Shown: one piece after another, positions 2,016 through 52,714 of the stretch
How the letters are laid out: each line of letters opens with the position of its first letter
How positions within the stretch are numbered: the first letter of the stretch is position 1
Source of the DNA: Prauserella alba
GTDB lineage: Bacteria > Actinomycetota > Actinomycetes > Mycobacteriales > Pseudonocardiaceae
Direction: 5' to 3'
Length of the DNA stretch: 64,000 nt
Assembly (NCBI RefSeq): GCF_024171735.1
Contig: NZ_JAMTCH010000005.1
Span: forward strand, 558,001 to 622,000
The notes under the pieces: generated by a model
The model's input: only the letters and a program-made list of their open reading frames with translations
Told to the model about the DNA's origin: nothing
Databases searched by the model: none
Made by a program: the position numbers and the translations under genes

Positions 2016-2985
2016 GCGCGGCCCCGGTGCCGAGGCGTGCAGGCCCTCGCCGCCGGTCGATGCCGTGTTGCGCATTCCGGGGCCCGTGTTGCGAGTTCGG
2101 GTGGCCGTGTTGTGGGTTTGGGGGCTCGTGTTGTGGCTTGGCGGAGCCCTGGACTGCGCGCTGGGCGCGGGCGGCGAGGGCGCGGCGGTCACCCGCCGGT
2201 TCGATGGGGCGGTGGCACTCGGCGTGAATCGTCAGCTCGCGGGCACGGATCACGCGGGGCAGTGACGAGGCGAGGCCGTCGTCGCCGACGAACGCCGCGA
2301 CCGTCGACGGTTCGCCGCGTTGCCGGTAGGACAGCGTGACGGGCCGGACCGGGGCGCCCGCGTCGATCGCGGCCTGGAACACTGCCCTGCGGAACGGGCC
2401 GCCCGGGGCGCCGCACCACGTCGTGGCCTCGGGGAAGGCGACGACGGATTCGCCCGCGCGGAGCCGCTCGGCGACGGCGTCGACCGCGGTGGGCAGTCCG
2501 CGCAGCGACCACCGGTCGAGCAGCAGCGTTCCGGTGCGCCGCGCCTGCCTGCCGACGAACGGCCAGTGCGCGACCTCACGTTTCGCCAGGAACGTCAGCG
2601 GCTCGAGCGCCAGCAACGCCGGAACGTCCAGCCACGACACGTGATTCGCAACCACGAGCGTCCCCACGCCGCCGTGTTGCGGATTCCGGGGCCCGTGTTG
2701 CGGGTTCGGGGGCTCGTGTTGCAGGGCGGTGGTGAGTGGGCCGGTGGCGGTGAGCGTGATGCCCAGGGCGTCGAGGGCGGCCGCAGCCCGGTGCCGGACG
2801 TCGGCGACGCGCCGCTGTTCGGTGTCGGGGTGGTGGTCGGTGTCGGGGAGAGCGCCGGTCAGGACTTTCGCGAGGGCCACGGTTCGCCGCACGCTCTCCA
2901 TGGTCGGCACCGGCGGCAACCGGTGCGTGACACACCGGGGAGTGCACGGTGAACTCGCCCGCCACGGATTGGCTCCCGCGTTCAC
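2008..2985 (-). CDS. PlsC/OlsA-like 1-acylglycerol-3-phosphate O-acyltransferase
   Basis: 325-residue lysophospholipid acyltransferase. The catalytic NHVSWLD box lies at residues 114-120, and a FPEATTW segment replaces the usual FPEGT acceptor-binding motif. It would transfer an acyl group onto a lyso-lipid. The GTG start overlaps the TGA of the upstream GNAT gene (GTGA), so the two are coupled; the ATG at 2901 is an alternative. A GNAT of the hemolysin/OlsB type followed by a PlsC protein resembles the OlsB-OlsA pair that makes ornithine lipids; that role is inferred. The gene is interrupted in frame twice by 21-bp repeats: PQHGPRN units at about residues 88-105, just before the catalytic box, and again near the C terminus (about 282-310). 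Confidence 0.83.
   Translation of the reverse strand: MNAGANPWRASSPCTPRCVTHRLPPVPTMESVRRTVALAKVLTGALPDTDHHPDTEQRRVADVRHRAAAALDALGITLTATGPLTTALQHEPPNPQHGPRNPQHGGVGTLVVANHVSWLDVPALLALEPLTFLAKREVAHWPFVGRQARRTGTLLLDRWSLRGLPTAVDAVAERLRAGESVVAFPEATTWCGAPGGPFRRAVFQAAIDAGAPVRPVTLSYRQRGEPSTVAAFVGDDGLASSLPRVIRARELTIHAECHRPIEPAGDRRALAARAQRAVQGSAKPQHEPPNPQHGHPNSQHGPRNAQHGIDRRRGPARLGTGAAHV
2064..2147. repeat. 21-bp ACACG-core tandem repeat, 4 units (array A)
   Basis: Four units with CGTGT cores at 2064, 2085, 2106 and 2127, exactly 21 bp apart. On the minus strand each reads as a CGCAACACG-type core followed by a C-rich block. The array lies inside the 3' end of the PlsC-like gene and immediately upstream of the DedA start. 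Confidence 0.9.
2673..2735. repeat. 21-bp ACACG-core tandem repeat, 3 units (array B)
   Basis: CGTGT cores begin at 2673, 2694 and 2715, spaced 21 bp. The array is embedded in frame in the PlsC-like gene, where it encodes PQHEPPN and PQHGPRN units just before the catalytic NHxxxxD box. Confidence 0.9.
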
Positions 2986-3857
2986 CGGTCGTCTCCGAGC
3001 AGGTAACGCAGGTAGCGGTCGTCGACGTCGGCCAGCCGCAGCAGTACGTAGAAGTCGGCGACGTCGAAGTCCGGGTCGTGGGCGGGCGGCCCGCAGACCC
3101 AGGCGCCGAGACGCAGGTATCCGCGCAGCAGCGGCGGCAGGTCGGCGTACCGCGGGCGTTCGACCCGGTGCGGTGGCAGCCACGGCCGGTGCGGGCGCAC
3201 GCGGTACTCGGCCGGTGACGCGTGCCGCGTGGCCGCGAGGTGCCAGGCGGTCGCCGCCGCGTGCCCGCCGTCGGCCAGTGGCACCGATGCGCAACCGCCC
3301 AGGTAGCGATGACCTGCGAGGAGCGTGTACCGCGCGAGTGTCGACCACATCAGCGTGATCACGGAGCCGTTGCGATGTGCGGGAGCCACGCACGAACGGC
3401 CTGCCTCGGCGATCTCGCCTGCGAGGGGTTCGAGGTCGCCGAGGTCGAACTCGGTGGCGGAATACGGGACGGAGGAGCGGTGCGGTGGCAGGATGCGGTA
3501 GGTGCCGACGAGCTCGCCGGTCGGTTCGTGCGTGACGATGAGGTGATCGCACAGCTCGTCGAACGCGTCGGCGTCCAGCGTCGCATGTCCTGCACCCGGC
3601 CCCGCGTGTCCTGTATTCGTGGCGCCGTGTTGCGGGTTCCGGGGCCCGTGTTGTGGATCCCGGGAGCCGTGTTGTGGATTCGAGGGGGTGTTCGCGTCCC
3701 GGAGTTGCGATTCGCCGGTATGCGCGGCCGTCAGATCGGCGCCGAGTTCGCCGGCGAACACTGCCGCGCGGAGTCGTTGCGCGGCGCGGATCTCGTCACG
3801 GGTGTCGGCGATGCGGGCCGTGTAGGTCCGCGTCGCCGCGGTGGACAACACGGGCAT
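2982..3857 (-). CDS. GNAT/hemolysin-like N-acyltransferase (OlsB type)
   Basis: 291 residues, belonging to the Acetyltransf_5 group that includes OlsB, which N-acylates ornithine with a 3-hydroxyacyl chain from ACP. Visible features are an N-terminal AAVFAGELGADL strand, FDELCDHLIV, TGELVGTYRIL and an AEAGRSCVAPAHRNGSVI segment equivalent to the acyl-donor site. ITLMW and YLGGCASVPL follow. The C-terminal half has a PPLLRGYLRLGAWVCGPP stretch typical of OlsB relatives. It heads a coupled set with the PlsC-like and DedA genes. A 35-residue insert at residues 57-91, NPQHGSRD/PQHGPRN units, is the 21-bp repeat translated in frame; relatives usually have a short loop here. Ornithine lipid synthesis is a reasonable but unproven role. 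Confidence 0.85.
   Translation of the reverse strand: MPVLSTAATRTYTARIADTRDEIRAAQRLRAAVFAGELGADLTAAHTGESQLRDANTPSNPQHGSRDPQHGPRNPQHGATNTGHAGPGAGHATLDADAFDELCDHLIVTHEPTGELVGTYRILPPHRSSVPYSATEFDLGDLEPLAGEIAEAGRSCVAPAHRNGSVITLMWSTLARYTLLAGHRYLGGCASVPLADGGHAAATAWHLAATRHASPAEYRVRPHRPWLPPHRVERPRYADLPPLLRGYLRLGAWVCGPPAHDPDFDVADFYVLLRLADVDDRYLRYLLGDDR
3584..3688. repeat. 21-bp ACACG-core tandem repeat, 5 units (array C)
   Basis: Cores at 3584 (CATGT), 3605, 3626, 3647 and 3668 (CGTGT), strictly 21 bp apart. The first two units are of the GCAGGACACG subtype on the minus strand and the rest of the GCAACACG subtype. All lie inside the GNAT gene. Confidence 0.9.
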
Positions 3858-4365
3858 GGCGCTCTCCGTTCCTCAGGTGTGCATCGAATGCGTACAACGA
3901 GGAGAAAAACACCGGAGAAGTGCCACTGACCAGGGGATACGACTGATATCAGGGACATGTCGGGGCGGTCCCCGAGGCCCCTGGTAGGGCTACCCCCACC
4001 AGGGCGATCCGGCCCACCGCCGCCGAGCGCTGAAGCCGGCGTTCCCGCCATCGCCCGTGTTCTGCACTCGGAACCTCGAACTTCTGCGCCCGGGCCTCGA
4101 ACTTCTGCGCTCGGCGGCGAGACGTTGCGTGATGCCGACGTCTGCACTCCGGGCTAGCCCGTAGCCGCATCTGCCGGCTGTTCGGCCCGGCGGGATGTCG
4201 CCGCCGGGTTTCGTGTCGAATCGGCAACGCACGCGGCACACGGCTGCGAGCGAAACGTGTACCGGAACCTGCAACACGGGCACCGGGAAACGCAACACGA
4301 GCCCCGGAAAGCGCAACACGGCGTCACGAATGCAGGACACGCGTGCACGAATGCAGGACACGCGG
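3858..4365. other. Gene-free promoter and repeat region upstream of the GNAT operon
   Basis: 508 bp with no convincing gene. The first ~100 bp (3871-3960) are lower in GC than anything nearby (GAGGAGAAAAACACC, GATACGACTGATATCAGG) and probably hold the minus-strand promoter of the GNAT operon. The remainder holds two 21-bp repeat arrays. Open frames across it have no domain signature. Confidence 0.5.
4060..4115. repeat. 21-bp repeat, AACTTCTGC subtype
   Basis: CCTCGAACTTCTGCGC begins at 4074 and again at 4095, exactly 21 bp apart, preceded by a degenerate TTCTGCACTCGGAA unit at 4060. The period matches the ACACG arrays but the core differs, suggesting a third subtype or an unrelated minisatellite. 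Confidence 0.7.
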
Positions 4366-4369
4366 TCAG
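4253..4369. repeat. 21-bp tandem repeat joining two subtypes, 5 units (array D)
   Basis: ACACG cores end at 4278, 4299, 4320, 4341 and 4362, all 21 bp apart, with a degenerate AAACG at 4257 in the same phase. Units 1-3 carry GCAACACG and units 4-5 carry GCAGGACACG, so both subtypes belong to one phased array. Confidence 0.9.
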
Positions 4370-5172
4370 CGTGGGGCGATCGACGTCCACGGGACGGTGA
4401 GTTCGCCGAGCCGCCACCGCGCCGGGCGGTTCAGGACCGGCCAACCGGACGCGGCCAGCAGGCGCACCGCCTCCGTCCACCGCGCCCGCGGGCCGAACGC
4501 CGAGTACGGCGCCGCCGTCGCCCAGCACTGGTCCAAACGAGACAGTAGATCGTGAATCCGCTCGCCCGGAACGTTTCGGTGTATCAACGCCTTCGGTAGC
4601 CGCTCGGCCACAGTGGACGGACGCTCCAGCGATGCGATCCGGCACGAGAGCGTCAACGACACCGGGCCGCGATGCGACACCGTCGCCCACGCGCACAGCC
4701 TGCCGATCTCGTCGCACGTGCCGTCGACGAGCAGCCCGCCCGGCACGACCCGTTCGAGCATCGCCCGCCACGACGGTTCGACGTCCGACTCGTCGTACTG
4801 CCGCAGCACGTTGAACGCCCGCACCACCGCCGGCCTGCTGCCTGCCAGCTCGAACCCGCCGCGTCGGAAATCCAGTACGGGCGGAGCCGCGACCGCCGCT
4901 CCCGCGGCCACTCGCTCTTGGTCGAGCTCGAGGCCGAGCACGCGCACGTCCGGAACGGCCGCGCTCAGCCGCGTCGCCAGCTCGACGGTCGTGACGGGCG
5001 ATGCGCCGTAGCCGAGGTCGACGACCAGGGGTGAGGCGTCCGAACGCAGGGCGCGCCGCACTCCGGGATCCGCGAGCAACCAGCGGTCGACGCGGCGCAG
5101 CCGGTTCGGGTTCGTGGTTCCTCTGGTCGGCGAGCCGAGCGGCTCGGCGCGCTTCAGCTGCGCGCGAGCCAC
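4366..5172 (-). CDS. Class I SAM-dependent methyltransferase-like protein
   Basis: 268 residues with a Rossmann-type SAM-binding core: PLVVDLGYGASPVTTVELA (motif I, about residues 48-66), VRVLGLELDQERV (acidic end of strand 2) and VVRAFNVLRQYDE (strand 4). The second half lacks a recognisable substrate-recognition domain. Similar proteins sit beside murB in many actinobacteria; the substrate is unknown. The start overlaps the end of the DUF2505 gene by 19 bp, so both are read together, divergently from murB. The C terminus abuts repeat array D. Confidence 0.72.
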   Translation of the reverse strand: MARAQLKRAEPLGSPTRGTTNPNRLRRVDRWLLADPGVRRALRSDASPLVVDLGYGASPVTTVELATRLSAAVPDVRVLGLELDQERVAAGAAVAAPPVLDFRRGGFELAGSRPAVVRAFNVLRQYDESDVEPSWRAMLERVVPGGLLVDGTCDEIGRLCAWATVSHRGPVSLTLSCRIASLERPSTVAERLPKALIHRNVPGERIHDLLSRLDQCWATAAPYSAFGPRARWTEAVRLLAASGWPVLNRPARWRLGELTVPWTSIAPR

Positions 5173-5642: not shown

Positions 5643-5667
5643 GACCGGGACAGTACCGTTGCGGGTT

Positions 5668-6717: not shown

Positions 6718-6726
6718 GGGCCCTGT

Positions 6727-6962: not shown

Positions 6963-7002
6963 GAAAGGAGCCCTTGGGACGCCCGCCGCCGTCGCCGAAC
7001 CT

Positions 7003-11475: not shown

Positions 11476-12788
11476 AGATCCCCTGGTACCGGCAGGCGGT
11501 TGCGTACCGGCAGGCGGCGGCGACGCAACAGCCACGCCGGGTGGCGGTGCTGACCGTGCATACCTCTCCGCTGGAGCAGCCGGGCACCGGCGACGCGGGT
11601 GGCATGAACGTCTACATCGCCCAGACGGCCCAGGAGATGGCCAGACGCGGCGTGCAGGTCGAGGTGTTCACGCGCGCCACGTCGTCGGACCAGCCGCCGG
11701 TAGCCGAACTCGCCCCCGGAGTGCTCGTGCGGCACATTCCCGCGGGCCCGTTCGAACCACTGTCCCGCAGTGAGCTGCCCGCTCAGCTGTGCGCGTTCAC
11801 CAACGGAGTGCTGCGCACGGAGGCGTTCCACGAGCCCGGCTACTACGACCTGATCCATTCGCACTACTGGCTGTCCGGCCAGGTCGGCTGGCTCGCGCGC
11901 GACCGGTGGGGCGTGCCGCTGGTCCACACCGCCCACACCCTCGCCAAGGTGAAGAACGCCGCGCTCGCCGAGGGGGACACGCCGGAACCGCGCACGCGCG
12001 TGATCGGCGAACAGCAGGTGGTCGACGAGGCGGACCAGCTGATCGTCAACACCGGTGTCGAGGCCGACCAGCTCGTCGACCTCTATGACGCCGACCCGCG
12101 AGCCGTGCGGACCGTGTCGCCGGGTGTCGACCTGGAGCGGTTCCGGCCGGGGTCGCAGGCGCGGTCGCGTCGGGTCCTCGGGTTGAGTGACGACTCCGTG
12201 GTGCTGGCGTTCGCCGGCCGCATCCAGCCGTTGAAGGCCCCGGACGTGCTGCTGCGCGCGGCGGCGGAACTGGTCGGGCGCAGGCCGGAACTGCGCAGCA
12301 GGCTCGTCGTGTTGATCGCGGGCGGGCCGTCGGGAACCGGACTGGAACAGCCGGAGTCACTGAAGGCACTCGCCGCGGACCTCGGCATCGCGGACCTGAC
12401 CAGGTTCCTGCCGCCGCAGGGGGGAGCAGGTCTGGTCGACGTGTACCGGGCCGCGGACGTCGTGGCGGTGCCGAGTCACAACGAGTCGTTCGGCCTGGTG
12501 GCGCTGGAGGCGCAGGCCTGCGGGACTCCGGTGGTCGCCGCCTCGGTGGGCGGACTGCCCGTGGCGGTCGACCACGGCACGTCGGGACTGCTCGTCGGAT
12601 CGCACCGGGCGCCGGAATGGGCCGACGCGCTGGCCGACGCGGCGTTGCGGCGCCGGGACGCCCTCGCCGCGGGTGCGGTGCGGCACGCCCGGCGGTTCTC
12701 GTGGCAGCGGACGACGGACACGCTGCTGGGCAGTTACGCCGACGCGCGCGGCGCGTTCCGCCGTGCGGCCCTGGAGGTGGCGGTGTGA
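11472..12788 (+). CDS. mshA: D-inositol-3-phosphate glycosyltransferase
   Basis: MshA joins UDP-GlcNAc to 1L-myo-inositol-1-phosphate, the first step of mycothiol synthesis, in the cytoplasm. 438 residues in a GT-B (GT4) fold: the N-terminal [20 protein letters not shown] signature binds the acceptor, [18 protein letters not shown] opens the C-terminal domain, and [20 protein letters not shown] carries the UDP-sugar-binding glutamates. The GTG at 11472 overlaps the previous stop by 3 bases. Members of this family in other actinobacteria share the tail DTLLGSY. The end overlaps the next gene by GTGA. Confidence 0.95.
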
Positions 12789-13318
12789 GCGAGCGCGACG
12801 TGGGCGACGTCGACGCGATCGTGCGGTCGGCGCTCGACGCTTCGGAGGTGCCGTACGACCGGCGGGCCGACGGCGTGTATTTCGTGACGCTGCCGGGCGT
12901 GAAGAAGCTGCAGACGAACGCGTGGCTGGTCGTGCGGGAGCATTCGCTGGCGGTGGAGGCATTCGTGTGCCGGCGCCCCGACGAGGCCTGCGAGGACGTC
13001 TATCGGTTCCTGCTGCGGCGCAACGCGAAGCTGTACGGCGTGGCCTACACGCTGGACTCGGCGGGCGACATCTACCTGGTGGGCAGGCTGGGACTGGACG
13101 CGGTCTCCGCCGCCGAGGTCGACACCGTGCTGGGCCAGGTTCTGGAAACGGCCGACGGGGACTTCAACACCCTGCTGGAGCTGGGTTTCGCGAGTTCGAT
13201 CCGCAGGGAGTGGGACTGGCGCGTGAGCCGCGGCGAGTCGTTGGCGAACCTGCAGGCGTTCAAGCACCTGGTGGAGCCGGCTTCGAATCACGAGCCGGGC
13301 ACGCTGACGGACGACTAG
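12785..13318 (+). CDS. YbjN domain-containing protein
   Basis: 177 residues of the YbjN/sensory-transduction-like family, typically encoded directly after mshA in actinobacteria (Rv0487 position). YbjN proteins resemble type III secretion chaperones in fold, and in E. coli YbjN affects stress and motility; no enzyme activity is known. Features include a central [18 protein letters not shown] strand pair and [28 protein letters not shown], the best-conserved block. The GTG start overlaps the mshA TGA. It is the last gene of the hydrolase-mshA-ybjN operon; a repeat array begins about 40 bp after the stop. Confidence 0.83.
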
Positions 13319-14044
13319 TGCGGCGGGCCGGAGTGCCGACCATACGCGGCTGAGTGCAGAACACGCGCGTCCGAATGCAGGACACGGGCGTCTGGGCGCA
13401 GGACACGCGCACGGGAAACAACGGGTGCTGGTCCGAACGAATGGTGCCCAGCGCTCGCCCAGGTGGGGGAGCACGCATCGTGGGGGTCCAGGGGACTCGG
13501 CGCTGGGCTCAACGAAGAGATCAGTGGGCTCAACGAGGAGACCGCTGATCGGCGGGCGCGTCCCGCGAGCGCAGTTCCCCGAAGTGGTCGACGGGGCGGC
13601 TCGAGGGAGGGGGGAGTCGCGAACTCGAGCCGCCCCGTGGACCTTCCCGCCTGTTCGGACCCGGTGACGAGGGGGATGCCAACGGGGCCGGCGGGCCGCA
13701 GCTCGGCAGGGGGGAGACGAGCTGCGATCTGCTCCCGCGTTGCTCGGCCCGGGGAGTGCGTGGTTCCGGGCCGTGCGGGCTCAACTGTCAACTTGTCAGA
13801 CTCGGCACTGTAATCACAAGACTACTGGCTACTCTATTCGAGTGAAATTTCCCGACAGGTTGAACACACTGCGGCCCTGTCAACGCCATCGACCTGTAGA
13901 TGCACACCCCGATCGAGAGTTCGTACCGACTTCACCGCGCGTTGAAGACACTCTGTGTAGATCGCGTGGTAGGGCGGAGGAACCCGTTAACGCAGTGGCC
14001 GACGTCGCGCTACTCGAATCGGCGGAGCATGGCACGCTGAGACC
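13319..14044. other. 726-bp gene-free region with repeats and a low-GC leader before gpmA
   Basis: No supported gene. Array E (13355-13412) is followed by a different 21-bp pair: GGGCTCAACGA at 13505 and 13526. From about 13785 the sequence is clearly poorer in GC (TCAACTTGTCAGACTCGG, TAATCACAAGACTACTGG, GAGTGAAATTTCCCG) and probably contains the gpmA promoter. Open frames through the segment show no domains. Confidence 0.5.
13355..13412. repeat. 21-bp tandem repeat, GCAGGACACG subtype, 3 units (array E)
   Basis: ACACG cores end at 13365, 13386 and 13407, each preceded by GCAG(A/G). The array lies about 40 bp after the ybjN stop. Confidence 0.88.
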
Positions 14045-15193: not shown

Positions 15194-15775
15194 CGTCGAC
15201 CTCCACGTATGTCCGCCGATCGCTCTGATTCGAAAACCACGCGTTCGTACCCCACCAGTCACCGTCCGGGTGTTCGTCATCGCCGACCACGGGACTGACG
15301 AAGGATCACCGTGAGGATCGATCCGGCCGTCACCGAGTGTCCGACGACTCGAACCGAGCGGCCGCTCCTGCTTGCCGGGTCAGGTCGTTGCCGGACCGCG
15401 TGCGCGTCTTGCACCGCCTCATCCGCCCAGGACGTTTCGAGGCGGCCAGGCGCCGTCGTGCGGCAGCGCGCCGATAAGGGGTGGTCGGGCGACAGGTGGG
15501 GCAACACGGCCCCTGGAACCCGCACAACACGCGCCCCGGAGAGCGCAACACGCGCCCCGGAGAGCGCAACACGCGCCCCGGAGGGCGCAACACGGGCGCG
15601 GCGGGCGGGGTGGACACGGGGTGCGCCGGGGTCGGGTGGACGGTGGCGGAAAGGGCGTTCGGGGTACGGCAGGTGAACTGGATCTTGCCTGGTGGCGAAC
15701 ACATGGCCCCGGAGTGTCAGGCCGGTCACCGCTCGGCCTCCAGGACTAGGACAACCGCCCCGGCGAATGCTTACG
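15194..15775. other. Gene-free region upstream of senX3
   Basis: 582 bp between divergent genes. It contains repeat array F and presumably the senX3-regX3 promoter close to 15700-15775. Long frames here are translations of the repeat (RNTRPGE units) and have no family match. No clear PHO-box-like direct repeat was seen. Confidence 0.45.
15500..15604. repeat. 21-bp ACACG-core tandem repeat, 5 units (array F)
   Basis: ACACG cores end at 15508, 15529, 15550, 15571 and 15592. Units 3 and 4 are nearly identical (GAGAGCGCAACACGCGCCCC), the most homogeneous part of any array here, suggesting recent duplication. Confidence 0.92.
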
Positions 15776-24064: not shown

Positions 24065-24280
24065 ATGCCGGCGAAAGGTAACGACGACCTGCCAGGACCA
24101 CGGCAGGTCCAGTTCTTGACGGTCGCGGAGGTGGCGTCGCTGATGCGCGTCTCCAAGATGACCGTCTACCGCTTAGTGCATTCGGGGGAGCTGCCGGCGG
24201 TTCGCGTCGGCAAGTCCTTCCGGGTGCCGGAACAGGCCGTCCACGACTATCTGGACAACGCATACTTCGACGTCGGCTGA
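24065..24280 (+). CDS. Excisionase-type helix-turn-helix protein (BldC-like, Rv0500A position)
   Basis: 71 residues consisting almost only of a MerR-like winged helix-turn-helix: VQFLTVAEVASLMRVSKMTVYRLVHSGEL (helix-turn-helix), then PAVRVGKSFRVPEQAVHDYL. It resembles small DNA-binding proteins of the excisionase family conserved between proC and bS22 in actinobacteria. ATG 24065 was chosen; the longer frame upstream has no similarity. It probably binds DNA as a multimer like BldC; targets are unknown. Confidence 0.87.
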   Translation: MPAKGNDDLPGPRQVQFLTVAEVASLMRVSKMTVYRLVHSGELPAVRVGKSFRVPEQAVHDYLDNAYFDVG

Positions 24281-32392: not shown

Positions 32393-32434
32393 CGTGTCCT
32401 GCGCTCGGGCACCCGTGCTCGCGCGGCGATGCCC
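32393..32434. repeat. 21-bp repeat remnant, 2 units (array L)
   Basis: CGTGT at 32393 and CGTGC at 32414, 21 bp apart, in the GCAGGACACG subtype on the minus strand. It is wedged between convergent stops of the synthetase and glutaredoxin genes. Confidence 0.65.
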
Positions 32435-33933: not shown

Positions 33934-34035
33934 GTGCAGGACACGTACGGCCGGGTGTGGGCCCCGGAATCCGCAACGCGGGCCCCGGAACCTGCAACAC
34001 GCGCCCCGGAAAGCGCAACACGGGGCGGGAGGGCT
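33934..34035. repeat. 21-bp ACACG-core repeat, 4 units, irregular (array G)
   Basis: ACACG ends at 33945; then ACGCG at 33980, ACACG at 34001 and 34022. The first unit (GCAGGACACG) is separated by 35 bp, the rest by 21. It begins right at the ArsC-like stop. Confidence 0.85.
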
Positions 34036-34110: not shown

Positions 34111-35784
34111 ATGGCCAGCACTGGCGATTCGTCGCAGCAACCCGCGCAACCGGCAACGACGACACCTCGGCGCGTGCCGAGAGTACGGCTCGTGATCGCA
34201 GCGATCGTGGCGCTCGCCGCGGCGCTCGCTGCAGGTCACCTGGTGGCGGCGTTCGTCGGGCCACAGGCGTCGCCGCTGCTGGCGGTCGGCAACACGGCGA
34301 TCGACCTGACCCCGTCGTGGCTGAAGGATTTCGCGATCGCCACCTTCGGCACGGCCGACAAGCTCGCGCTCCTGGTGGGCATGGGCGGGGTGCTGCTCGG
34401 CTTGGCCGTTCTGGCGGCACTGGCGTCAGGACGCGGTCCCGCGCCCGGCACGGTGCTGATCGTCGCGGTCGGAGTCCTGGGCCTGGTCGCGGTGGTGACG
34501 CGCCCGGACGTCGGCAGGCTCGCCGCGGCCGCCCCACTCGCGAGTCTCGCCGCGGGCGTGGCGACGTGGCTGCTGCTCCACCGCCGCGCCTCGCCCTCGG
34601 ACGTCGTGGAGACGGCAGGCACCCGCCCCGACCGAGCCGGCCCCGACCGAACCGACTCCGGCGCCGAGCGGACCGACGAGGTGCCGCACGGCACCCGTGC
34701 CTCGGGGGCAACGCCCGGCAGGCGGCAGTTTCTCGTCACCGCCGGTGGCGCGGCGGCCGTCGCCGGAGTGGCCGGGCTGGCGGGCGGATTCGTCGGCGGC
34801 GCGCGTGATGCGACGTCGTCCCGCGCGGCGGCGCCGCCGTTGCGCGCCACCCGGCGGCTGCCCGCCCCGCCGAACGACGCGGACTTCGCCAAGCTGGGCA
34901 CGCCGACGTTCCTCACCCCGAACGACGCCTTCTACCGCATCGACACCGCCCTGTCCGTGCCCCAGGTGCCCGCGGACGACTGGCGGCTGCGCATCCACGG
35001 CATGGTCGACCGCGAACTCGAGCTCAGCTACGACGACGTCCGCCGTCGCGGCCTGATCGAACGGCGGATCACCCTGTGCTGCGTGTCCAACCAGGTCGGA
35101 GGCGAGCTGATCTCCACGGCGACGTTCACCGGCGTCGACCTGGGCGACCTGCTCCGCGACGCCGGGGTGCGCGACGGTGCGCAGCAGCTGCTTTCGTCGA
35201 GTTCCGACGGCTGGACCTGCGGAACCCCGATCGACGTCCTGCTGGAACGTGACCGGGGCGCCATGCTCGCGCTCGGCATGAACGGCCAGCCGCTGCCGCT
35301 GGAGCACGGTTTCCCCGCTCGGCTCGTGGTTCCGGGCCTGTACGGCTACGTGTCGGCGACGAAATGGGTCACCGACCTCGAAGTCACGACGTGGGACAGG
35401 CGCCGGGCGTACTGGCTCGACCGCGGATGGGCGCGCGAGGCACCGGTGAAGACACAGTCACGCATCGACCGGCCGTCCGCCAACGCCACGATGCCGGCTG
35501 GGCGGGTGATCGCCGCCGGGATCGCATGGGCGCAGCACACCGGCGTCGCCAAGGTCGAGGTGCGACTCGACGGGGGCCGCTGGCAGGAGGCGACCCTCTC
35601 GGCCGACGTCTCCGACGACACGTGGCGGATGTGGCACATCGCGCTCGACGTCGACCGCCCGGGCAGTCACCGGATCGCCTGCCGCGCGACCGACAAGTCC
35701 GGATACACGCAGACCGCCGAGCGGATGGGCGTGCTGCCCGACGGTGCCACCGGCCACCACACGATCACGTTCACCACGGAGTAG
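34111..35784 (+). CDS. Molybdopterin-dependent oxidoreductase (sulfite-oxidase-like), membrane-anchored
   Basis: 557 residues. Four to five N-terminal helices (residues 25-165), an arginine-rich linker with GRRQFLVTAGGAAAVAGVAG (Tat-like segment at about 207-226), then the sulfite oxidase fold. Cys323 or Cys324 in RITLCCVSNQVGG would ligate molybdenum; WTCGTPIDVLLE, GFPARLVVPGLYGY and KWVTDLEV are typical Moco contacts. A C-terminal dimerisation domain (VEVRLDGGRWQEATL) follows. There is no haem domain. It is probably a periplasmic-side oxidoreductase whose electron acceptor is unknown. ATG 34111 is preceded by GGAGG. Confidence 0.87.
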   Translation: MASTGDSSQQPAQPATTTPRRVPRVRLVIAAIVALAAALAAGHLVAAFVGPQASPLLAVGNTAIDLTPSWLKDFAIATFGTADKLALLVGMGGVLLGLAVLAALASGRGPAPGTVLIVAVGVLGLVAVVTRPDVGRLAAAAPLASLAAGVATWLLLHRRASPSDVVETAGTRPDRAGPDRTDSGAERTDEVPHGTRASGATPGRRQFLVTAGGAAAVAGVAGLAGGFVGGARDATSSRAAAPPLRATRRLPAPPNDADFAKLGTPTFLTPNDAFYRIDTALSVPQVPADDWRLRIHGMVDRELELSYDDVRRRGLIERRITLCCVSNQVGGELISTATFTGVDLGDLLRDAGVRDGAQQLLSSSSDGWTCGTPIDVLLERDRGAMLALGMNGQPLPLEHGFPARLVVPGLYGYVSATKWVTDLEVTTWDRRRAYWLDRGWAREAPVKTQSRIDRPSANATMPAGRVIAAGIAWAQHTGVAKVEVRLDGGRWQEATLSADVSDDTWRMWHIALDVDRPGSHRIACRATDKSGYTQTAERMGVLPDGATGHHTITFTTE

Positions 35785-35792: not shown

Positions 35793-35866
35793 ACACGACC
35801 CCGGAATCCGCAACACGGGCCCCGGAATCCGCAACACGGCGGCGGGAGTGCAGGACACGCGAGGGG
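35793..35866. repeat. 21-bp ACACG-core repeat, 4 units (array H)
   Basis: ACACG ends at 35797, 35817, 35838 and 35859 (20, 21, 21 bp apart). The last unit switches to the GCAGGACACG subtype. It begins within 15 bp of the oxidoreductase stop. Confidence 0.88.
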
Positions 35867-40007: not shown

Positions 40008-41540
40008 ATGACCCCCCCAAGCAAGACCACGGGGCGCGTCGCCTTCGTGGGCGCGGGCCCCGGTGACGCGGGACTGCTCACGGTCCGCGCCCAGGAGCTG
40101 CTGGCCAAGGCCGACGTCGTCGTCACCGACCCGGACGTGCCGGCGGGCGCGCTCGCCTACGCCCGCGAGGAGGCCGAGGCGCGTCCCGCGGTCGGCGAGC
40201 CGGGGGACGTCGCCAAGGACCTGGCCACCGAGGCCGAGTCGGGCCGCGTCGTGCTGCGTCTCGTCGCGGGTGACCCGCTGACGCAGCCCGCGGTCGTCGC
40301 TGAGGTTCAGGCCGTGTCGAAGACCGAGGTCGTGTTCGACGTCGTACCGGGTGTCACGCCGAGCACCGCGGTCCCCGCGTATGCGGGCCTGCCGCTGGGC
40401 GGCACACACACCGAGGTCGACCTGACCCGCGACGTCGACTGGAAGGGCGTGGCGCAGGCGCAGGGAGCGATCGTGCTGCACGGCACGTCGAGCCACCTCG
40501 CCGAGGCCGCCTCGCAGCTCATCGACAACGGCGTGGCCGCCGACACGCCCGTGGCCGTCACGTCGAACGGCACCATCAACACGCAGCGCACGATCGAGAC
40601 GACCCTCGCCTCGCTCGGCGCCGACGCCGGTGAACTGGCTGGCTCGCTGATCGTCACCGTCGGAACGGTCGTCTCGGACCGCAAGCAGCTGTCGTGGTGG
40701 GAATCGCGCGCGCTGTACGGCTGGAAGGTCCTCGTGCCGCGCACGAAGGACCAGGCGGGCGACATGGCCGAGCGGCTCCGCAGCCACGGCGCGACGTCGC
40801 ACGAGGTGCCGACGATCTCCGTCGAGCCGCCCCGCAGCCCCGCGCAGATGGAGCGTGCGGTCAAGGGCCTGGTCGACGGCCGGTTCCAGTGGATCGTGTT
40901 CACCTCGGCCAACGCGGTGAAGGCCGTGCTGGAGAAGTTCACCGAGTTCGGCCTCGACGCCCGCGCGTTCGCCGGCGTGAAGATCGCCTGTGTCGGCGAG
41001 GCGACGGCCGAGAAGGTGCGGTCGTTCGGCATCCAGCCGGAGCTCGTTCCCGAGGGGGAGCAGTCGAGTGAGGGCCTGCTCAAGGAGTTCCCGCCGTACG
41101 ACGACGTGCTCGACCCGGTGAACCGCGTGCTGCTGCCGCGTGCCGACATCGCCACCGAGACGCTGTCCGCCGGACTGACCGACGCGGGCTGGGAGGTCGA
41201 CGACGTCACGGCCTACCGCACCGTGCGTGCCGCGCCGCCACCCGCCGAGACCCGCGAGATGATCAAGACGGGCGGGTTCGACGCCGTGTGCTTCACCTCG
41301 TCGTCCACCGTGCGGAATCTGGTCGGCATCGCGGGCAAACCGCACGCGCGCACGCTCGTGGCGTGCATCGGCCCGAAGACGGCCGAGACGGCGACCGAGT
41401 TCGGCCTGCGCGTCGACGTGCAGCCCGAGACGCCGAACGCCGTGGAGCTCGTCGACGCGCTCGCCGCCCATGCGGCGAAGCTGCGCGCCGAGGGTGCCCT
41501 GCCGCCGCCGAAGAAGGCCAAGCGCACCCGCCGCTCCTGA
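40008..41540 (+). CDS. hemD: Uroporphyrinogen-III synthase fused to a SUMT/CobA-like domain
   Basis: 510 residues. C-terminal half (about 245-500) is HemD, which closes hydroxymethylbilane to uroporphyrinogen III: WKVLVPRTKDQAGDMAERL, FQWIVFTSANAV, VACIGEATAEKVRSFG, FTSSSTVRNLVGIAG. N-terminal half is a SAM methyltransferase-like domain (VAFVGAGPGDAGLLTVRA, VVPGVTPSTAVPAYAGLPL). Its GGDPF motif is altered to AGDPL and its acceptor loop is diverged, so the methyltransferase half may be weak or structural. The fusion is usual in actinobacteria. A GAGGAGAG ribosome site precedes ATG 40008. Repeat array I starts about 80 bp after the stop. Confidence 0.92.
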   Translation: MTPPSKTTGRVAFVGAGPGDAGLLTVRAQELLAKADVVVTDPDVPAGALAYAREEAEARPAVGEPGDVAKDLATEAESGRVVLRLVAGDPLTQPAVVAEVQAVSKTEVVFDVVPGVTPSTAVPAYAGLPLGGTHTEVDLTRDVDWKGVAQAQGAIVLHGTSSHLAEAASQLIDNGVAADTPVAVTSNGTINTQRTIETTLASLGADAGELAGSLIVTVGTVVSDRKQLSWWESRALYGWKVLVPRTKDQAGDMAERLRSHGATSHEVPTISVEPPRSPAQMERAVKGLVDGRFQWIVFTSANAVKAVLEKFTEFGLDARAFAGVKIACVGEATAEKVRSFGIQPELVPEGEQSSEGLLKEFPPYDDVLDPVNRVLLPRADIATETLSAGLTDAGWEVDDVTAYRTVRAAPPPAETREMIKTGGFDAVCFTSSSTVRNLVGIAGKPHARTLVACIGPKTAETATEFGLRVDVQPETPNAVELVDALAAHAAKLRAEGALPPPKKAKRTRRS

Positions 41541-41621: not shown

Positions 41622-41706
41622 CGTGTTGCAGATCCCGGGAGCCGTGTTGCAGGTTCCGGGGACCGTGTTGTCGTTTCCGGGGCATGTGTTGTCGTCCGCG
41701 GGGGCT
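41622..41706. repeat. 21-bp ACACG-core repeat, 4 units (array I)
   Basis: CGTGT cores at 41622, 41643, 41664 and TGTGT at 41685, all 21 bp apart. It lies between hemD and a degraded hydrolase remnant. Confidence 0.9.
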
Positions 41707-42057: not shown

Positions 42058-42110
42058 ACATGCGTGCAGGAGTGCAGGACACGCGGTGCCGGGTGCAGGA
42101 CACGCGGTGT
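42058..42110. repeat. 21-bp repeat, GCAGGACACG subtype, 3 units (array J)
   Basis: Cores ACATG/ACACG end at 42062, 42083 and 42104, each preceded by TGCAGG. The array ends at the stop of the M20 peptidase gene. Confidence 0.9.
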
Positions 42111-42114: not shown

Positions 42115-43239
42115 TCAGGCGCGGCAGTAGGCCTCGGCGACGCGGCGGAAGGTCTCCTCCGACTCGTGGAGCCTCGCGATCGACACCCACTCGTCGGTGA
42201 CGTGCGCCAGCTCGGGTTCGCCGGGGCCGCACACGACCGTCGGCACACCACCCAGTGCGGGGGTCAGCACCGACGCGTCCGTGAAGTACGTCGCCGCCCG
42301 CGGGTCGCCGTCGCTCCGGCGGCCCGTCACGTCGGCGGCGATCGCCGTGACGGCAGCCGCCCATTCGTCGGCGGGGTCGGTCCACACGGCCGGCAGGTCG
42401 ATGAGCGGCTCCAACGACGCATCGCCGCCGACACGGGCCTGCAGGTTCTCGGTGATGGCGGCGTGGTCCTGGCCGGGCACGGTGCGGATGTCGACCGTCG
42501 CGACCGCCGAGTCCGGCACCGAGTTCGTGTTCAGCCCGCCGCGGAACGTGCCGACGTTCAGCGTCGGCGCGCCCATCGCCGGATGCGCCTGCTCGGTGAA
42601 GACGAATCGCTCGAAGGTGCCGACCGCGCGGGCGAGCTTGTAGACGGCGTTCTCGCCCAGGTGCGGCATCGACCCGTGGGCCGTCACGCCCTCGGCGCGC
42701 GCGGACAGCCACAGCGCGCCCTTGTGGCCGTGGAAGACGGCGCCCGCCGTCGGCTCGGCGATCAGCAGCGGCCCCGACGGGCGGTCGCGCAGCACACCGA
42801 GCGCTCCCCGCGCGCCGTGCGAACCCGTCTCCTCCGCGGCGGTGAGCACGAGGCGCAGCCCCGCCCGCGGCATCCGCCCCGACCTCGCGACGCCGATGGC
42901 CGCGCACACGATCGCTGCCACGCCGCCCTTCATGTCCGTGGTGCCCCGGCCGTACAGCCGGTCGCCCTCCGGTTCGGCGCGGAACGGATCGCGAGACCAC
43001 TCGGCGTCGCCCAGCGGCACCGTGTCCACATGCCCCGACAGGCACAGCGGGGGCGTGTCCGTGCCGGCGTGCCACTCGGCGATCAGCGTGCCGCGCCCGG
43101 GTTCGTGCTCGACCGTCTCGACGTCGAAACCCGCGTCCTCCAGGTGCGGCGCCACCACGGCGAGGGTGCGGCTCTCGTCGCGGTCGATGGTGTCGACGGC
43201 GACGAGCTCTCGGGTCAGGCTCAGCACGTCCGGGCTCAT
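42115..43239 (-). CDS. M20 family metallopeptidase (ArgE/DapE-like)
   Basis: 374 residues. Metal-binding motifs are LCLSGHVDTVP (His), GRGTTDMKGGVA (bridging Asp), TAAEETGSHG (catalytic and metal Glu), LLIAEPT and a C-terminal AHVTDEWVSI histidine. The dimerisation lid domain covers about residues 165-280. Family members deacylate acetylornithine, succinyl-diaminopimelate or peptides. The gene is not in an arginine or lysine cluster, so the substrate is open. ATG 43239, divergent from hemB across 138 bp. Confidence 0.88.
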   Translation of the reverse strand: MSPDVLSLTRELVAVDTIDRDESRTLAVVAPHLEDAGFDVETVEHEPGRGTLIAEWHAGTDTPPLCLSGHVDTVPLGDAEWSRDPFRAEPEGDRLYGRGTTDMKGGVAAIVCAAIGVARSGRMPRAGLRLVLTAAEETGSHGARGALGVLRDRPSGPLLIAEPTAGAVFHGHKGALWLSARAEGVTAHGSMPHLGENAVYKLARAVGTFERFVFTEQAHPAMGAPTLNVGTFRGGLNTNSVPDSAVATVDIRTVPGQDHAAITENLQARVGGDASLEPLIDLPAVWTDPADEWAAAVTAIAADVTGRRSDGDPRAATYFTDASVLTPALGGVPTVVCGPGEPELAHVTDEWVSIARLHESEETFRRVAEAYCRA

Positions 43240-45137: not shown

Positions 45138-45766
45138 GCGGCAAGGACGCCGGCAGCGACGCCGAGAACCACGCCGGCGACACGGGCGGTGACGGCGACG
45201 CCGGTGCAGGCCCGGACGAGCCCACGGCCCACGACGCCACGGCCCATGAAGCAACGGCCCATGAAGCAACGGCCCATGAAGCAACGGCCCATGAAGCCAC
45301 GGCCAACGAAGCGACGGTCCACGAGGTCGCGGTCCACTACGACGAACCGGGCGCGACGCTGTGGCGGCTCGGGCTCGGCCCGGCGCTGGCCGCGCTGGGC
45401 TTCGTCACGGAGCTGATCCTCGGCCAGCCGCCGCACTGGTTGATGTGGATCATCACGGGCGCCGGTCTGCTGTGGCTGAACGGCCTCTGGGTGTTCGCCC
45501 GGCGCAAGTTCCTGCGGGTCCGGGTCACCGACACCGAACTGGTGCAGGGCACCGAGACGCTGCCCATCGCCGACATCGCCGCGGTGCTCACCCGCGAGCC
45601 CAGGCCCGGAACCCGCGTGCTCGGCGGCGGGCAGACCGTGCCGCGCCGGTACGAGGCCGTCGAGCTCAAGCTGGCCGGCCGCAAGCACGTGCTCGCGTGG
45701 TCGCAGGACACGGAGACGTTCACGGCGGCGTTGCACACGGCCATGCGAAACTCACGCCGTGACTGA
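45134..45766 (+). CDS. DUF3093-like membrane protein with 5-residue repeats
   Basis: 210 residues. The first 70 are acidic and repetitive: ATAHE is repeated from a 15-bp tandem unit (about 45223-45330, ACGGCCCATGAAGCA). Two helices follow (LGLGPALAALGFVTELIL and PHWLMWIITGAGLLWLNGLWVF). A soluble end, LRVRVTDTELVQGTETLPI and PRRYEAVELKLAGRKHVLAW, suits DUF3093-like proteins but this is uncertain. GTG 45134 overlaps the previous stop; the end overlaps the next start. Confidence 0.7.
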   Translation: MSGKDAGSDAENHAGDTGGDGDAGAGPDEPTAHDATAHEATAHEATAHEATAHEATANEATVHEVAVHYDEPGATLWRLGLGPALAALGFVTELILGQPPHWLMWIITGAGLLWLNGLWVFARRKFLRVRVTDTELVQGTETLPIADIAAVLTREPRPGTRVLGGGQTVPRRYEAVELKLAGRKHVLAWSQDTETFTAALHTAMRNSRRD

Positions 45767-48917: not shown

Positions 48918-48937
48918 GCAGCCGCTCGTCCCCATAG

Positions 48938-48989
48938 CCCCCAAGGGCACTGTGGTTGCGTTGAGTGCAACCAAAGTGCCCCCGGGGGC
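48938..48989. repeat. Palindromic repeat, 52-bp copy between resA and ccdA
   Basis: Starts GCCCCCAAGGGCACTGTGG and ends CCAAAGTGCCCCCGGGGGC. One mismatch (ACTGTGG against CCAAAGT) and small apex differences. It lies inside the resA-ccdA-resB-ccsB cluster, so any terminator action would be partial. Confidence 0.93.
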
Positions 48990-49088
48990 TTCGCGTCCCG
49001 AGTCGGAAGAGTGACGGGCGCCGCATTCCCGCAGGTGGAGACAGGGGGCGGCGATTTAACACCGACCCCATTCCCTAGTCTGGGTGTC

Positions 49089-49868: not shown

Positions 49869-51646
49869 CCCCAGCGCCGCCCCAGCGGACCGACAAGGCC
49901 GACGACCCCACGCCCGCCTACCGCGCGACACCGCTGCGCAGGGCGTGGGCGTTCGTCCGCAACACCTGGCGTGGCCTGACGTCGATGCGCACCGCGCTGA
50001 TCCTGCTGTTCCTGCTGGCCGTCGCCGCCCTGCCGGGTGCGTTGCTGCCACAGCGGTCGGTCAACGAACGGAACGTCAACGGCTACCTGGCCGAGCACGG
50101 CTGGTGGGGCAGTCTGCTCGACAGCCTGCAGATGTTCGACGTCTACTCCAGCGTCTGGTTCTCGGCGATCTACCTGCTGCTGATGGTGTCGATCATCGGG
50201 TGTCTCGTGCCGCGGACGTCGGACTACGTCCGCAGCATGCGCTCCAAGCCGGTGCTGACGCCGCGGAACCTGCGCAGGCTGCCGCACCACGAACGGGCCG
50301 AGACCTCCGATGACGTCGACGCCGTGATGGCCGCGGCGCGCAAACGCCTGCGCGGGTGGCGCCTCACCGAACGCGAGGAGGCCGGCGGCGCCCGCAGTAT
50401 CAGCGCCGAACGCGGCTACCTGCGTGAAACCGGAAACCTGCTGTTCCACTTCGGCATGCTCGGCGTGATCATCTCGTTCGCGGGCGGCGCGCTGTACTCG
50501 TACGAGGGCCAGGTCGTGGTGCTCGCCGACGGGACCGAGTTCTGCAACTCCGGTATCTACAACTACGACTCGTTCGAACCGGGGCTGCAGGTCGACGGTA
50601 CGCAGCTGAACCCGTTCTGCGTGCGGGTCAACGACTTCGACGCGCGGTACCGCAACGGCCAGCCGGTGGCCTACGAGTCCGACATCGACTACCAGTCGGG
50701 CGAGGATCTGACGACCGGCACGTGGCGGTCGCACCACCTCGAGGTCAACGAGCCGCTGCGCACCGCGGGCGACCGGTTGTACCTGCTCAACCACGGTTAC
50801 GCGCCGACGTTCACGGTGACGTTCCCCGACGGCCAGAGCCGCACCCAGACCATCCAGTGGCGGCCGGTCGACCAGCAGACGTACCTGTCCGAGGGTGCGA
50901 CGAAGTTCGAGGAACCGGGCATCACCGACCCGGCCGAACGGCGCGAACGGCAGCTCGCCGTGACGGGCCTGTTCGCGCCGACACCGTCGATGCACGGCAG
51001 CATCCTGTCGTCGGCGGGGCCGCAGCTGAACAACCCGACGGTCGCGGTCGACATCATGCGCGGCGATCTGGGGGTCGACTCGGGACGGGGACAGTCCATC
51101 TTCGAGATCGACCAGTCGATGGTCGAGGCGGGCAGGTTGGAGCGGGTCGCACGCGAGAACCTGGAGGTCGGCCAGTCGCTGACCCTCGAAGACGGCACGA
51201 CGGTGCACTTCGACGGCGTCGAACGGTTCGTCGCGCTGCAGGTCTCGCACGACCCGCTGCAGAACTGGGTGCTCGCCTCGGCGGTGGTGATGTTCGCCGG
51301 GCTCGGGGCCTCGCTGTTCATCAAACGGCGCAGGCTGTGGGTGCGCGCCACTCCCGCGGGCGGGGACGGCCAGCCAGCCGGCGCCGCGGACGACACAGCT
51401 GCGGACGACACAGCTGCGGACGACACAGCTGCGGACGACACAGTGGCCGGTGACGGCGCTGCGGATAACACGGCGGCGGGTGACACAGCTTCGGGTGACA
51501 CGGCGGCGGGTGACACGGCGGCGGGTGACAACGGACCCAGTGAACGACGTACCGTAGTAGAAGTGGGCGGGCTCGCCCGCACCGATCAAGCCGGGTACGG
51601 CGAGGAGTTCACGCGCATCGCGGCAGACCTCCTCGGCCGGAAGTAG
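49865..51646 (+). CDS. resB: Cytochrome c biogenesis protein ResB
   Basis: 593 residues. ResB and CcsB/ResC form the System II haem-transfer complex. Three N-terminal helices (TALILLFLLAVAALPGALLPQ, WFSAIYLLLMVSIIGCLVP, LLFHFGMLGVIISFAGGALYS), a large extracytoplasmic domain (about 215-470) and a last helix WVLASAVVMFAGLGASLF. The tail is an in-frame 15-bp minisatellite (about 51390-51540, ADDTA and AGDTA units) followed by a conserved-looking GGLARTDQAGYGEEFTRIA. GTG 49865 overlaps ccdA. Confidence 0.94.
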   Translation: MTPAPPQRTDKADDPTPAYRATPLRRAWAFVRNTWRGLTSMRTALILLFLLAVAALPGALLPQRSVNERNVNGYLAEHGWWGSLLDSLQMFDVYSSVWFSAIYLLLMVSIIGCLVPRTSDYVRSMRSKPVLTPRNLRRLPHHERAETSDDVDAVMAAARKRLRGWRLTEREEAGGARSISAERGYLRETGNLLFHFGMLGVIISFAGGALYSYEGQVVVLADGTEFCNSGIYNYDSFEPGLQVDGTQLNPFCVRVNDFDARYRNGQPVAYESDIDYQSGEDLTTGTWRSHHLEVNEPLRTAGDRLYLLNHGYAPTFTVTFPDGQSRTQTIQWRPVDQQTYLSEGATKFEEPGITDPAERRERQLAVTGLFAPTPSMHGSILSSAGPQLNNPTVAVDIMRGDLGVDSGRGQSIFEIDQSMVEAGRLERVARENLEVGQSLTLEDGTTVHFDGVERFVALQVSHDPLQNWVLASAVVMFAGLGASLFIKRRRLWVRATPAGGDGQPAGAADDTAADDTAADDTAADDTVAGDGAADNTAAGDTASGDTAAGDTAAGDNGPSERRTVVEVGGLARTDQAGYGEEFTRIAADLLGRK

Positions 51647-51658
51647 AAGGGCCTGGAG

Positions 51659-52714
51659 ATGCCGGTCAACGAGACGTTGTCGCAGTACAGCGACTGGTCG
51701 TACACCACATCCGTCGTCGTCTACATCCTGGCGATGGTGTTCTTCCTCGTCGAGCAGTCCTTCGGCCGACACGGCAGGCAGGCCGCCGAGCGCACGCGCA
51801 GCCGCGAACTCGTGGGCGCAGGCACCGGAAACCGCAACACGGACCCCGGAAACCGCAACACGGACCCCGGAAACCGCAACACGGACCCCGGAATCGGCAA
51901 CACGGGCTCTGGAAACGGCAACACGGGCCCCGGGAACGGCAACACGGGCGCGGCGCCGACGAGGGCGGAGCGGTTCGGCCGCATGGGCGTCGCGCTCACG
52001 GTGCTGGGCCTGCTGCTGCACGCGTCGGCGCTCGTGCTGCGCGGGCTCGCGACGGCCCGCGTGCCCTGGGGAAACATGTACGAGTACGTGATGATCACGT
52101 GCTTCGTCGCCGTCGCGGCGTGGTTGGTGCTGTTGCGCAAACACCCGGTGCGGCACCTGTCGATGTTCGTCCTGCTGCCGAACGTGATCCTGATGTTCGT
52201 CGGCGGCACGTGGCTCTACGCCGTCGCCGCCCCGCTGCAGCCCGCGCTCCAGTCGTACTGGCTGATCATCCACGTCGCGGCCGCCGCGGCCTCGTCCGGC
52301 GTGTTCCTCGTGCCCGGTGTCGCGAGCATCTTCTACCTGATCAAGGCGCGTAACGAGAGTCACCCGGAGAAGTTCGCGAAGTTCGCGGCGAAGCTCCCCG
52401 CGAAGGACGTGCTCGACCGCGTCGCGTACCGGACGACGGTCTTCGCGTTCCCGGTCTTCACCTTCGGCGTACTGTGCGGAGCGGTCTGGGCCGAAGCCGC
52501 GTGGGGCCGGTTCTGGGGCTGGGATCCGAAGGAGACGGTCGCGTTCATCGCGTGGATCGTCTACGCGGCCTACCTGCATTCCCGTGCCACGGCGGGGTGG
52601 CGCGGGAACCGTGCCGCGGTCATCAATGTGATCGGTTTCGCAGTGACGGTGTTCAACCTGTTCTTCGTCAACCTCGTCACCACCGGCCTCCACTCGTACG
52701 CGGGAGTTGGCTGA
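51659..52714 (+). CDS. ccsB: Cytochrome c biogenesis protein CcsB/CcsA (haem handling), with in-frame repeat insertion
   Basis: 351 residues. The haem channel of System II. WGRFWGWDPKETVAFIAWIVY is the WWD-type haem motif. Helix 1 is SVVVYILAMVFFLV (18-32). Residues 57-97 are six GNRNTDP/GNGNTGP units encoded by 21-bp repeats (51826-51950), placed in the cytoplasmic loop before helix 2 (about 110). Relatives have a short or variable loop there. The frame is kept because 21 is divisible by 3. ATG 51659. Confidence 0.94.
   Translation: MPVNETLSQYSDWSYTTSVVVYILAMVFFLVEQSFGRHGRQAAERTRSRELVGAGTGNRNTDPGNRNTDPGNRNTDPGIGNTGSGNGNTGPGNGNTGAAPTRAERFGRMGVALTVLGLLLHASALVLRGLATARVPWGNMYEYVMITCFVAVAAWLVLLRKHPVRHLSMFVLLPNVILMFVGGTWLYAVAAPLQPALQSYWLIIHVAAAAASSGVFLVPGVASIFYLIKARNESHPEKFAKFAAKLPAKDVLDRVAYRTTVFAFPVFTFGVLCGAVWAEAAWGRFWGWDPKETVAFIAWIVYAAYLHSRATAGWRGNRAAVINVIGFAVTVFNLFFVNLVTTGLHSYAGVG
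51826..51951. repeat. 21-bp ACACG-core repeat, 6 units inside ccsB (array K)
   Basis: ACACG cores end at 51841, 51862, 51883, 51904, 51925 and 51946. The first three units are almost identical (GGAAACCGCAACACGGACCCC pattern, quoted here as GGAAACCGCAACACGG), the last three changed. This is the longest array in the window. Confidence 0.95.

Follow-up and report, generated by a model that had tools for sequence, protein, structure and literature searches.

The window analyzed here, a 64-kb stretch of Prauserella alba DNA (contig NZ_JAMTCH010000005.1, positions 558,001 to 622,000; G000:C3:558001-622000 in our numbering), carries arrays of a 21-bp direct repeat with the core ACACG, which we describe as chromosomal polar DNA elements at the 3′ ends of genes. 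We tentatively propose that these arrays are bound by a protein and stop or insulate transcription like the stoperators of phages, a reading to which we give somewhat less than an even chance. The first-pass annotation had called the repeat a dispersed minisatellite, a label that is incomplete, since position and orientation relative to genes belong to the feature. It mentioned neither that arrays A, B, C and L (Table 1) lie in frame within genes, nor that the intergenic arrays are biased in their placement relative to stop codons.

A search of the P. alba genome (5.61 Mb) for three cores at exact 21-bp spacing gave 177 matches, compared to 0 for the reversed pattern. Of these, 17 are located in the window, i.e., in ~1.1% of the genome length, so this is an array-rich stretch and the arrays are clustered along the chromosome. 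Loci with arrays of at least three units were then collected from this genome (21 loci) and from genomes of three other genera, G009, G015 and G030 (20 loci each). They were mostly chosen from places with three exact cores and do not represent a random sample of gene ends. In the P. alba set (460 kb), 156 pairs of cores were 21 bp apart, compared to 2 at 20 bp and 2 at 22 bp, while 81 (G009), 85 (G015) and 97 (G030) pairs were found at 21 bp, with 0 and 1 at 20/22 bp. The recurrence of ACACG every 21 bp noted previously was thus confirmed. Small exceptions to the phase are one extra core at 23 bp in array F and one at 20 bp in array I.

To avoid selecting units by their core, the motif was measured at positions midway between exact cores lying 42 bp apart. 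At these positions ACACG was intact in 97/104 units of P. alba, 74/81 of its congeners, 47/55 of G009, 51/53 of G015 and 56/60 of G030. Beyond the core, the sole position strongly kept in all five sets was a C at core+9, with frequencies of 0.92, 0.85, 0.98, 0.96 and 0.98, respectively. The constant motif in the four genera is therefore ACACGN4C every 21 bp, which is a new observation, and the spacer letters vary by genus (for example, GCAACACGGGCCCCGGAATCC in Prauserella, ACACGGCGTCGGGAGTGCAGG in G009 and ACACGGCTACGCAGGCTGCGG in G030). Adjacent 16-nt spacers differ at a mean of 2.8-4.4 positions; they are interrelated and not unique, which excludes a CRISPR array.

The strictness of the spacing was examined by taking two cores in phase and recording the next core within 12-30 bp, with 202 coreless cases (array ends and broken cores) excluded. 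The next core was located at exactly 21 bp in 97/102 cases in P. alba, 74/84 in the congeners, 47/47 in G009, 51/54 in G015 and 56/58 in G030 (325/345 in total). The spacers of the same five sets contained 424, 307, 136, 180 and 154 substitutions (1201 in all), while 20 spacing changes were seen, some of which are chance cores. At the indel:substitution ratio of coding sequences (0.066) ~79 spacing changes would be expected, and at that of other noncoding DNA (0.262, a value raised by arrays restricted to congeners) ~315; the comparison is rough, as slippage may copy units and indels that break a core are invisible. Inside arrays, spacing changes are thus far rarer than spacer substitutions, which had not been recognized before.

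The placement of the arrays was analyzed using genes called by a codon-usage caller made for this study, not the annotation, and only arrays with a called gene on each side were kept, which removed 1/50 in P. alba, 1/43 in congeners, 0/27 in G009, 0/30 in G015 and 0/35 in G030. Of the 141 arrays of at least three units in P. alba, G009, G015 and G030, 132 were intergenic: 65 lay in convergent gaps, 53 in tandem ones and 14 in divergent ones. Convergent gaps made up only 90 of 449 background gaps longer than 100 bp (Fisher p 1.6e-10). Among the 118 arrays with at least one flanking stop codon, 87 had the nearest stop on the ACACG side and 31 had it on the opposite side (p 2e-7). The congeners did not enter this test, since their sites and those of the window are orthologous. 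The individual splits were 27:13 in P. alba (p.038), 14:7 in G009 (p.19), 25:1 in G015 (p 8e-7) and 21:10 in G030 (p.071). For arrays whose ACACG end is turned toward a stop, the distance was ≤50 bp in 25/34, 17/19, 21/25 and 21/23 cases, respectively (84/101 in total), and the median distances were 24, 13, 15 and 4 bp. The 5′ edge was measured from the core, so that up to 16 bp of the unit lie beyond it. When the opposite end faces a stop, the corresponding fractions were 9/30, 8/11, 2/20 and 9/21. These results reveal a new property of the family, namely that intergenic arrays favor convergent gene ends, with the nearest stop mostly on the ACACG side.

Thirteen orthologous sites, namely those of the twelve arrays and a further one that lacks an array in the window, were compared with the six congeners, for which the anchors were incomplete at individual sites. 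The strand was identical at all 11 sites with arrays in at least two species. Array A is absent from all five congeners with anchors. At the site of array B, four units are present in G004 and G005, two single cores in G006, and none in G003 or G002. Array C has 4-5 units in the five congeners with anchors, and an array precedes the gene end matching that of array D in all six. The site of array G carries 2-4 units in four congeners, and the entire block containing array H is missing in G003. In the gene encoding the CcsB-type protein (array L), 6, 3, 6, 3 and 3 exact in-phase units were found in the window and four congeners with anchors; the stretch is shorter than that of the window by 63 bp in G006, 63 bp in G005, 42 bp in G003 and 6 bp in G004. 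At ~48.9 kb (site X), three congeners carry four units that are lacking in the window and in G003. Copy number therefore varies between species at orthologous sites and strand does not, a further new result. The variation in copy number that had been anticipated between strains was found here between species. No clear target-site duplications were seen by eye in the site alignments, as the distal ends fail to align.

The four window arrays located within genes (A, B, C and L) are read in frame, all with ACACG in the sense strand. In-gene arrays of at least three units were in this orientation in 15/16 cases at P. alba and congener loci, 1/3 in G009 and 1/1 in G015. Two reading frames are used, giving the heptads NTGPGNR and QHGPRNP. 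The Gln codon of the heptad was CAA in 22/22 cases (6 genes from 4 genomes, called genes only), compared to 50/490 in window genes. The core Thr of the CcsB-type protein was encoded by ACG in 25/25 cases (six genomes) against a background of 521/1101; four ACC codons in this count belong to neighboring residues. The genes are orthologues and so the codon counts are not independent. The DNA core is kept at synonymous sites, which indicates, also for the first time, that constraint, or copying, works on the DNA and not on the protein. Array L lies after the first hydrophobic segment (judged by eye) of the CcsB-type protein, which is 84% identical to its Prauserella rugosa homologue.

The distribution of the repeat was first determined in 60 genomes. 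The three-core pattern matched 143-365 times in the six congeners, 67-199 times in genomes of genera g4, g10, g21 and g25, and 1-6 times in four further Pseudonocardiaceae genomes; no match was found in the other 21 Pseudonocardiaceae genomes or in any of the 24 genomes from other families. Of 390 Pseudonocardiaceae genomes, 71, from 14 of 46 genera, contained a stricter pattern (three times ACACGN4C), and many of the 71 had only 1-2 matches. Dense sets occur in g1, g4 and g10, among members of g21 and of g25, and in part of the genomes of g16, g27 and g187. In a class-wide sample of 394 genomes, 12 matched, and the highest count outside the genus of P. alba was 5, which is nothing comparable. 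The repeat is thus neither rare nor limited to the window, its 21-bp phase recurs elsewhere and its copy number varies, contrary to the outcome that the first-pass annotation had named as refuting. We also observed that contigs C3, C4 and C5 of G030 and C15, C17, C21 and C46 of G607 start in or beside an array; long, near-identical arrays may therefore break assemblies, and the copy numbers may be underestimates.

The proposed mechanism rests on the geometry of the unit. Each 21-bp unit, equivalent to two helical turns, holds one asymmetric 10-bp site, ACACGN4C, of about one turn, and with one site per two turns all sites of an array share a helix face and a direction. A DNA-binding protein might oligomerize head-to-tail along the array. 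It would then always encounter RNA polymerase coming off the abutting gene from the same side and may stop or insulate transcription, as mycobacteriophage repressors do at stoperators. The shared properties of the arrays are DNA-level ones (site, face, direction and gene ends), and neither a shared RNA structure nor, in the window, an Rfam family was found. A protein that binds head-to-tail and faces the polymerase from one side would fit. A phased protein-binding array had been offered earlier as one explanation; the presence of ACACGN4C across genera, the rarity of spacing changes and the DNA-level conservation in coding regions are consistent with it, and the binder is a protein whose existence we infer. 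The more specific form of the proposal, that the arrays are lineage-restricted, factor-dependent polar markers of transcription ends, at which one protein would read phased ACACGN4C arrays after stops and end or insulate transcription in one direction, is in our view rather less likely than not.

The nearest precedent is the stoperators found in cluster A mycobacteriophages (L5 type), short sites that are asymmetric, intergenic, oriented with transcription and numerous in each genome, and that fail when reversed (PMC9283540). The present arrays resemble them in having an asymmetric site oriented relative to transcription (87:31 over four genera, with G015 alone strong). They differ from stoperators, which are 13-bp single sites in phage genomes bound by a known monomeric repressor, in being tandem 21-bp chromosomal arrays with another motif and a presumed binder.

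As for the binder, a 69-aa protein encoded in the window at 54937-55146 (-) resembles PDB chains 6ama (E ~6e-21) and 6amk (~1e-20), which we take to be BldC, and a second HTH_17 protein is encoded at 24065-24280 (+). The BldC-like protein is a lead only, and the HTH_17/BldC-like family is uninformative as a candidate, since it is present in 18/18 genomes tested. BldC is an actinomycete example of head-to-tail binding to direct repeats; it binds directionally to variable numbers of repeats with the protomer consensus AATTXXXX(C) (PMC5859096). This layout resembles ACACGN4C. Its operators are AT-rich, with one repeat per turn, and lie at promoters, in contrast to the GC-rich arrays described here, with one repeat per two turns at gene ends. 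With a spacing of 21 bp and the core ACACG instead of AATT, the arrays are not BldC operators.

Several observations weigh against the proposal of protein-bound end markers. The orientation bias is uneven, only G015 being strong by itself. In convergent gaps the ACACG end was nearer its own stop in 17/24 cases in P. alba, 4/9 in G009, 19/19 in G015 and 11/13 in G030, and in tandem gaps the antisense:sense ratios were 10:6, 10:2, 6:1 and 10:8, respectively, and 11:11 in the congeners. In-gene arrays of P. alba and its congeners mostly have the sense orientation, opposite to that at stops. A deficit of hairpins at gaps with arrays is unclear (convergent gaps: p.041 in G009,.09 in P. alba,.92 and.19 in the others; tandem gaps:.48-.78), and by eye strong hairpins follow some P. 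alba arrays; the signal for arrays as a replacement of absent hairpin terminators is thus weak or none. After array-less stops CGTGT was not in marked excess over ACACG (29:18 in P. alba, 24:20 in congeners, 10:10 in G009, 4:6 in G030, 15:12 in named relatives and 24:33 in other genomes; G015, at 13:2, is the exception), and so no ancestral single-site version was seen. Between species, 0.287 gaps per substitution were found within 60 bp of window arrays (unit-number changes included), compared to 0.262 in other noncoding DNA, so that the surroundings of the arrays are not depleted in gaps. Finally, the occurrence of arrays is patchy even inside genera, with counts in g27 ranging from 231 to 0.

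Nearly as likely as the protein-bound end markers, and again with a probability below even, is a selfish or neutral repeat, which spreads by an unknown route, grows and shrinks by slippage and survives where it does least harm, at gene ends and in protein linkers. The conservation of core and spacing would then reflect their recognition by the spreading machinery or homogenization of the arrays. The variable presence and copy number of arrays between species, their patchiness within genera and the lack of a single-site forerunner at array-less stops are all as expected of such a repeat. So is the tolerance of arrays in frame in proteins, as the commonest P. alba unit is 21 bp long and free of stop codons in every frame. 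Arrays that avoid promoters would also show the bias toward convergent gaps, but avoidance alone fails to explain the side of the stop or its closeness. Moreover, the differences between neighboring spacers (2.8-4.4 of 16 positions) imply that most units are not fresh copies, and the lack of visible target-site duplications also argues against spreading.

A second dispersed repeat of ~53 bp (AGTCGCGCGGTAGCGCGTCC...GGTCGGGCGACGGGCGGGCGCA) often immediately precedes 21-bp arrays, and in one place it forms a tandem pair with no array beside it. Its presence beside some arrays suits a selfish origin. A 20-base pattern from it had 9 exact matches in the P. alba genome and 0 in G009, G015 and G030. 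By eye, a degenerate copy precedes array F.

Among known dispersed repeats, REP/BIME elements mostly lie downstream of genes and between ORFs that converge or run in one direction, and sometimes in genes; REPs are palindromic, mostly tagged with GTAG or CGTC, and RAYT transposases have been proposed for the GTAG class (PMC3733652). The arrays resemble them in their location downstream of genes (65 convergent, 53 tandem and 14 divergent of 132). The present unit, in contrast, is a direct repeat and not a palindrome of 20-40 bp, and the inverted pairs in G030 and G015 appear as two arrays that meet, often head to head, with a constant center of 18 bp between them. Mobilization by RAYT was also rejected: of 9 array-rich genomes only G000, G002 and G030 encode a Y1 transposase (PF01797), compared to 2/9 array-poor genomes. 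The genes of this transposase family, the one examined, are thus uncorrelated with the arrays, contrary to what spreading by RAYT would predict. The TAACTGA repeats of Beggiatoaceae, cyanobacteria and others are likewise dispersed, with a preferred orientation relative to genes and length changes of mostly one unit (PMC4679880). Their 7-bp unit lies mostly beside start codons, in contrast to a 21-bp unit beside stops.

A less probable explanation, and in our opinion an unlikely one, is that the arrays organize the chromosome or relieve supercoiling at convergent gene ends, via gyrase or a nucleoid protein, without affecting termination. A role of this kind has been proposed for BIMEs in enterobacteria. 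The enrichment in convergent gaps (65/132 vs 90/449), the two-turn phasing and the inverted pairs around the constant 18-bp center in G030 and G015 would all be in keeping with this function. However, such a function would not depend on which end of the array is turned toward the stop, and 53/132 intergenic arrays occupy tandem gaps.

The least probable of these explanations is that the arrays act at the RNA level in the 3′ untranslated region, as a terminator hairpin, Rho site or stability element. Their position after stops would suit it, and the dyad center of paired arrays folds strongly (means of -20.2 kcal/mol in G030 and -17.8 in G015, compared to backgrounds of -15.2 and -15.6). In 45-nt windows along stop-abutting arrays (at most 25 in P. 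alba, 18 in G009, 22 in G015 and 21 in G030), however, the array RNA was weakly folded in G030 (-11 to -12 kcal/mol) and well folded in Prauserella (~-17 to -18 vs -14.8); fold strength differs between genera, and no RNA property common to them was found. Strict two-turn spacing is unexpected of RNA, and the 64-kb window had no Rfam match at gathering score, which also argues against any known structured RNA family.

In the window, Tandem Repeats Finder detected period-21 arrays at 11 of the 12 places listed in the first-pass annotation, the exception being 32393. Inspection of the sequence likewise showed an ACACG or CGTGT core every 21 bp at 11 of the 12, and chaining of exact cores at 21 bp gave 11 arrays of 2-6 exact units each. 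The count of twelve therefore holds for 11 places with at least two exact units, and array G is reduced to a single exact core here. The two subtypes described earlier, GCAACACG and GCAGGACACG, are both real and share one phase. A 21-bp tandem pair at 4074-4114, adjoining arrays C and D, has the core CGAACTTCTGC in place of CGTGTTCTGC and is a variant or decayed unit. Tandem Repeats Finder also detected arrays of a 15-bp unit at 45224-45321 (6.5 copies) and 51386-51530 (9.7 copies), both inside called genes and without 21-bp phase.

Table 1. Arrays of the 21-bp repeat in the window (positions from its first nucleotide) and places of the 53-bp repeat
Feature	Position	Strand	Units	Context
Array A	2064..2131	-	4	C-terminal tail (QHG frame) of PlsC-type acyltransferase gene; overlap with upstream end of VTT-domain ORF 1206-2192
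Array B	2673..2719	-	3	In frame in the acyltransferase gene of array A, N-terminal edge of Pfam match
Array C	3584..3672	-	4 exact + 1 variant	In frame, N-terminal edge of GNAT acetyltransferase match
Array D	4274..4362	+	5 (3 GCAACACG, then 2 GCAGGACACG)	Stop of gene 4366-5172 (-) 3 bp from ACACG end
Array E	13361..13407	+	3	Stop of gene 12785-13318 (+) 42 bp earlier
Array F	15504..15594	+	4 in phase	Extra core 23 bp before them
Array G	32393..32413	-	1 exact core	One-unit relic
Array H	33934..34022	+	2 exact adjacent + variants	Begins directly after TGA stop
Array I	35793..35859	+	3 in phase	Extra core 20 bp before; follows stop of gene 34192-35784 (+)
Array J	41622..41705	-	3 exact + 1 variant	Stop of gene 40008-41540 (+) 81 bp from ACACG end
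Array K	42058..42104	+	2 exact + 1 variant	Stop of gene 42115-43239 (-) 10 bp from ACACG end
Array L	51826..51951	+	6	In frame in CcsB-type protein, before cytochrome-c-assembly domain
53-bp repeat	L116: 1174, 1227 (reverse-complement positions)	-
53-bp repeat	L124:10610
53-bp repeat	L114:484

With respect to a phage or plasmid origin, the region of array F (181 bases), the sole region queried, had no match in phages or plasmids. In viral contigs, 79 stretches fit a loose form of the pattern, with other spacers as judged by eye and mostly without an adjacent gene call. Separately, long 21-bp repeats of the ACACGTCGCC type were observed in viral contigs L197 and L231 (one contig), L248, L253 and L259; by eye, their spacers are unlike those of the ACACG family, and they are probably repeat-protein genes on the other strand.

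A full-text literature search, with subscription journals mostly outside it, found no published account of an ACACG 21-bp family, in agreement with the earlier statement that no described family matches it. If the arrays are bound and polar, they would represent a host-encoded analogue of stoperators, present at many gene ends in GC-rich bacteria. If they are selfish, they would be an unusual family of direct repeats with a frame-neutral 21-bp unit, which settles beside stops and in proteins. In either case, the arrays that differ in length between species are natural variants.

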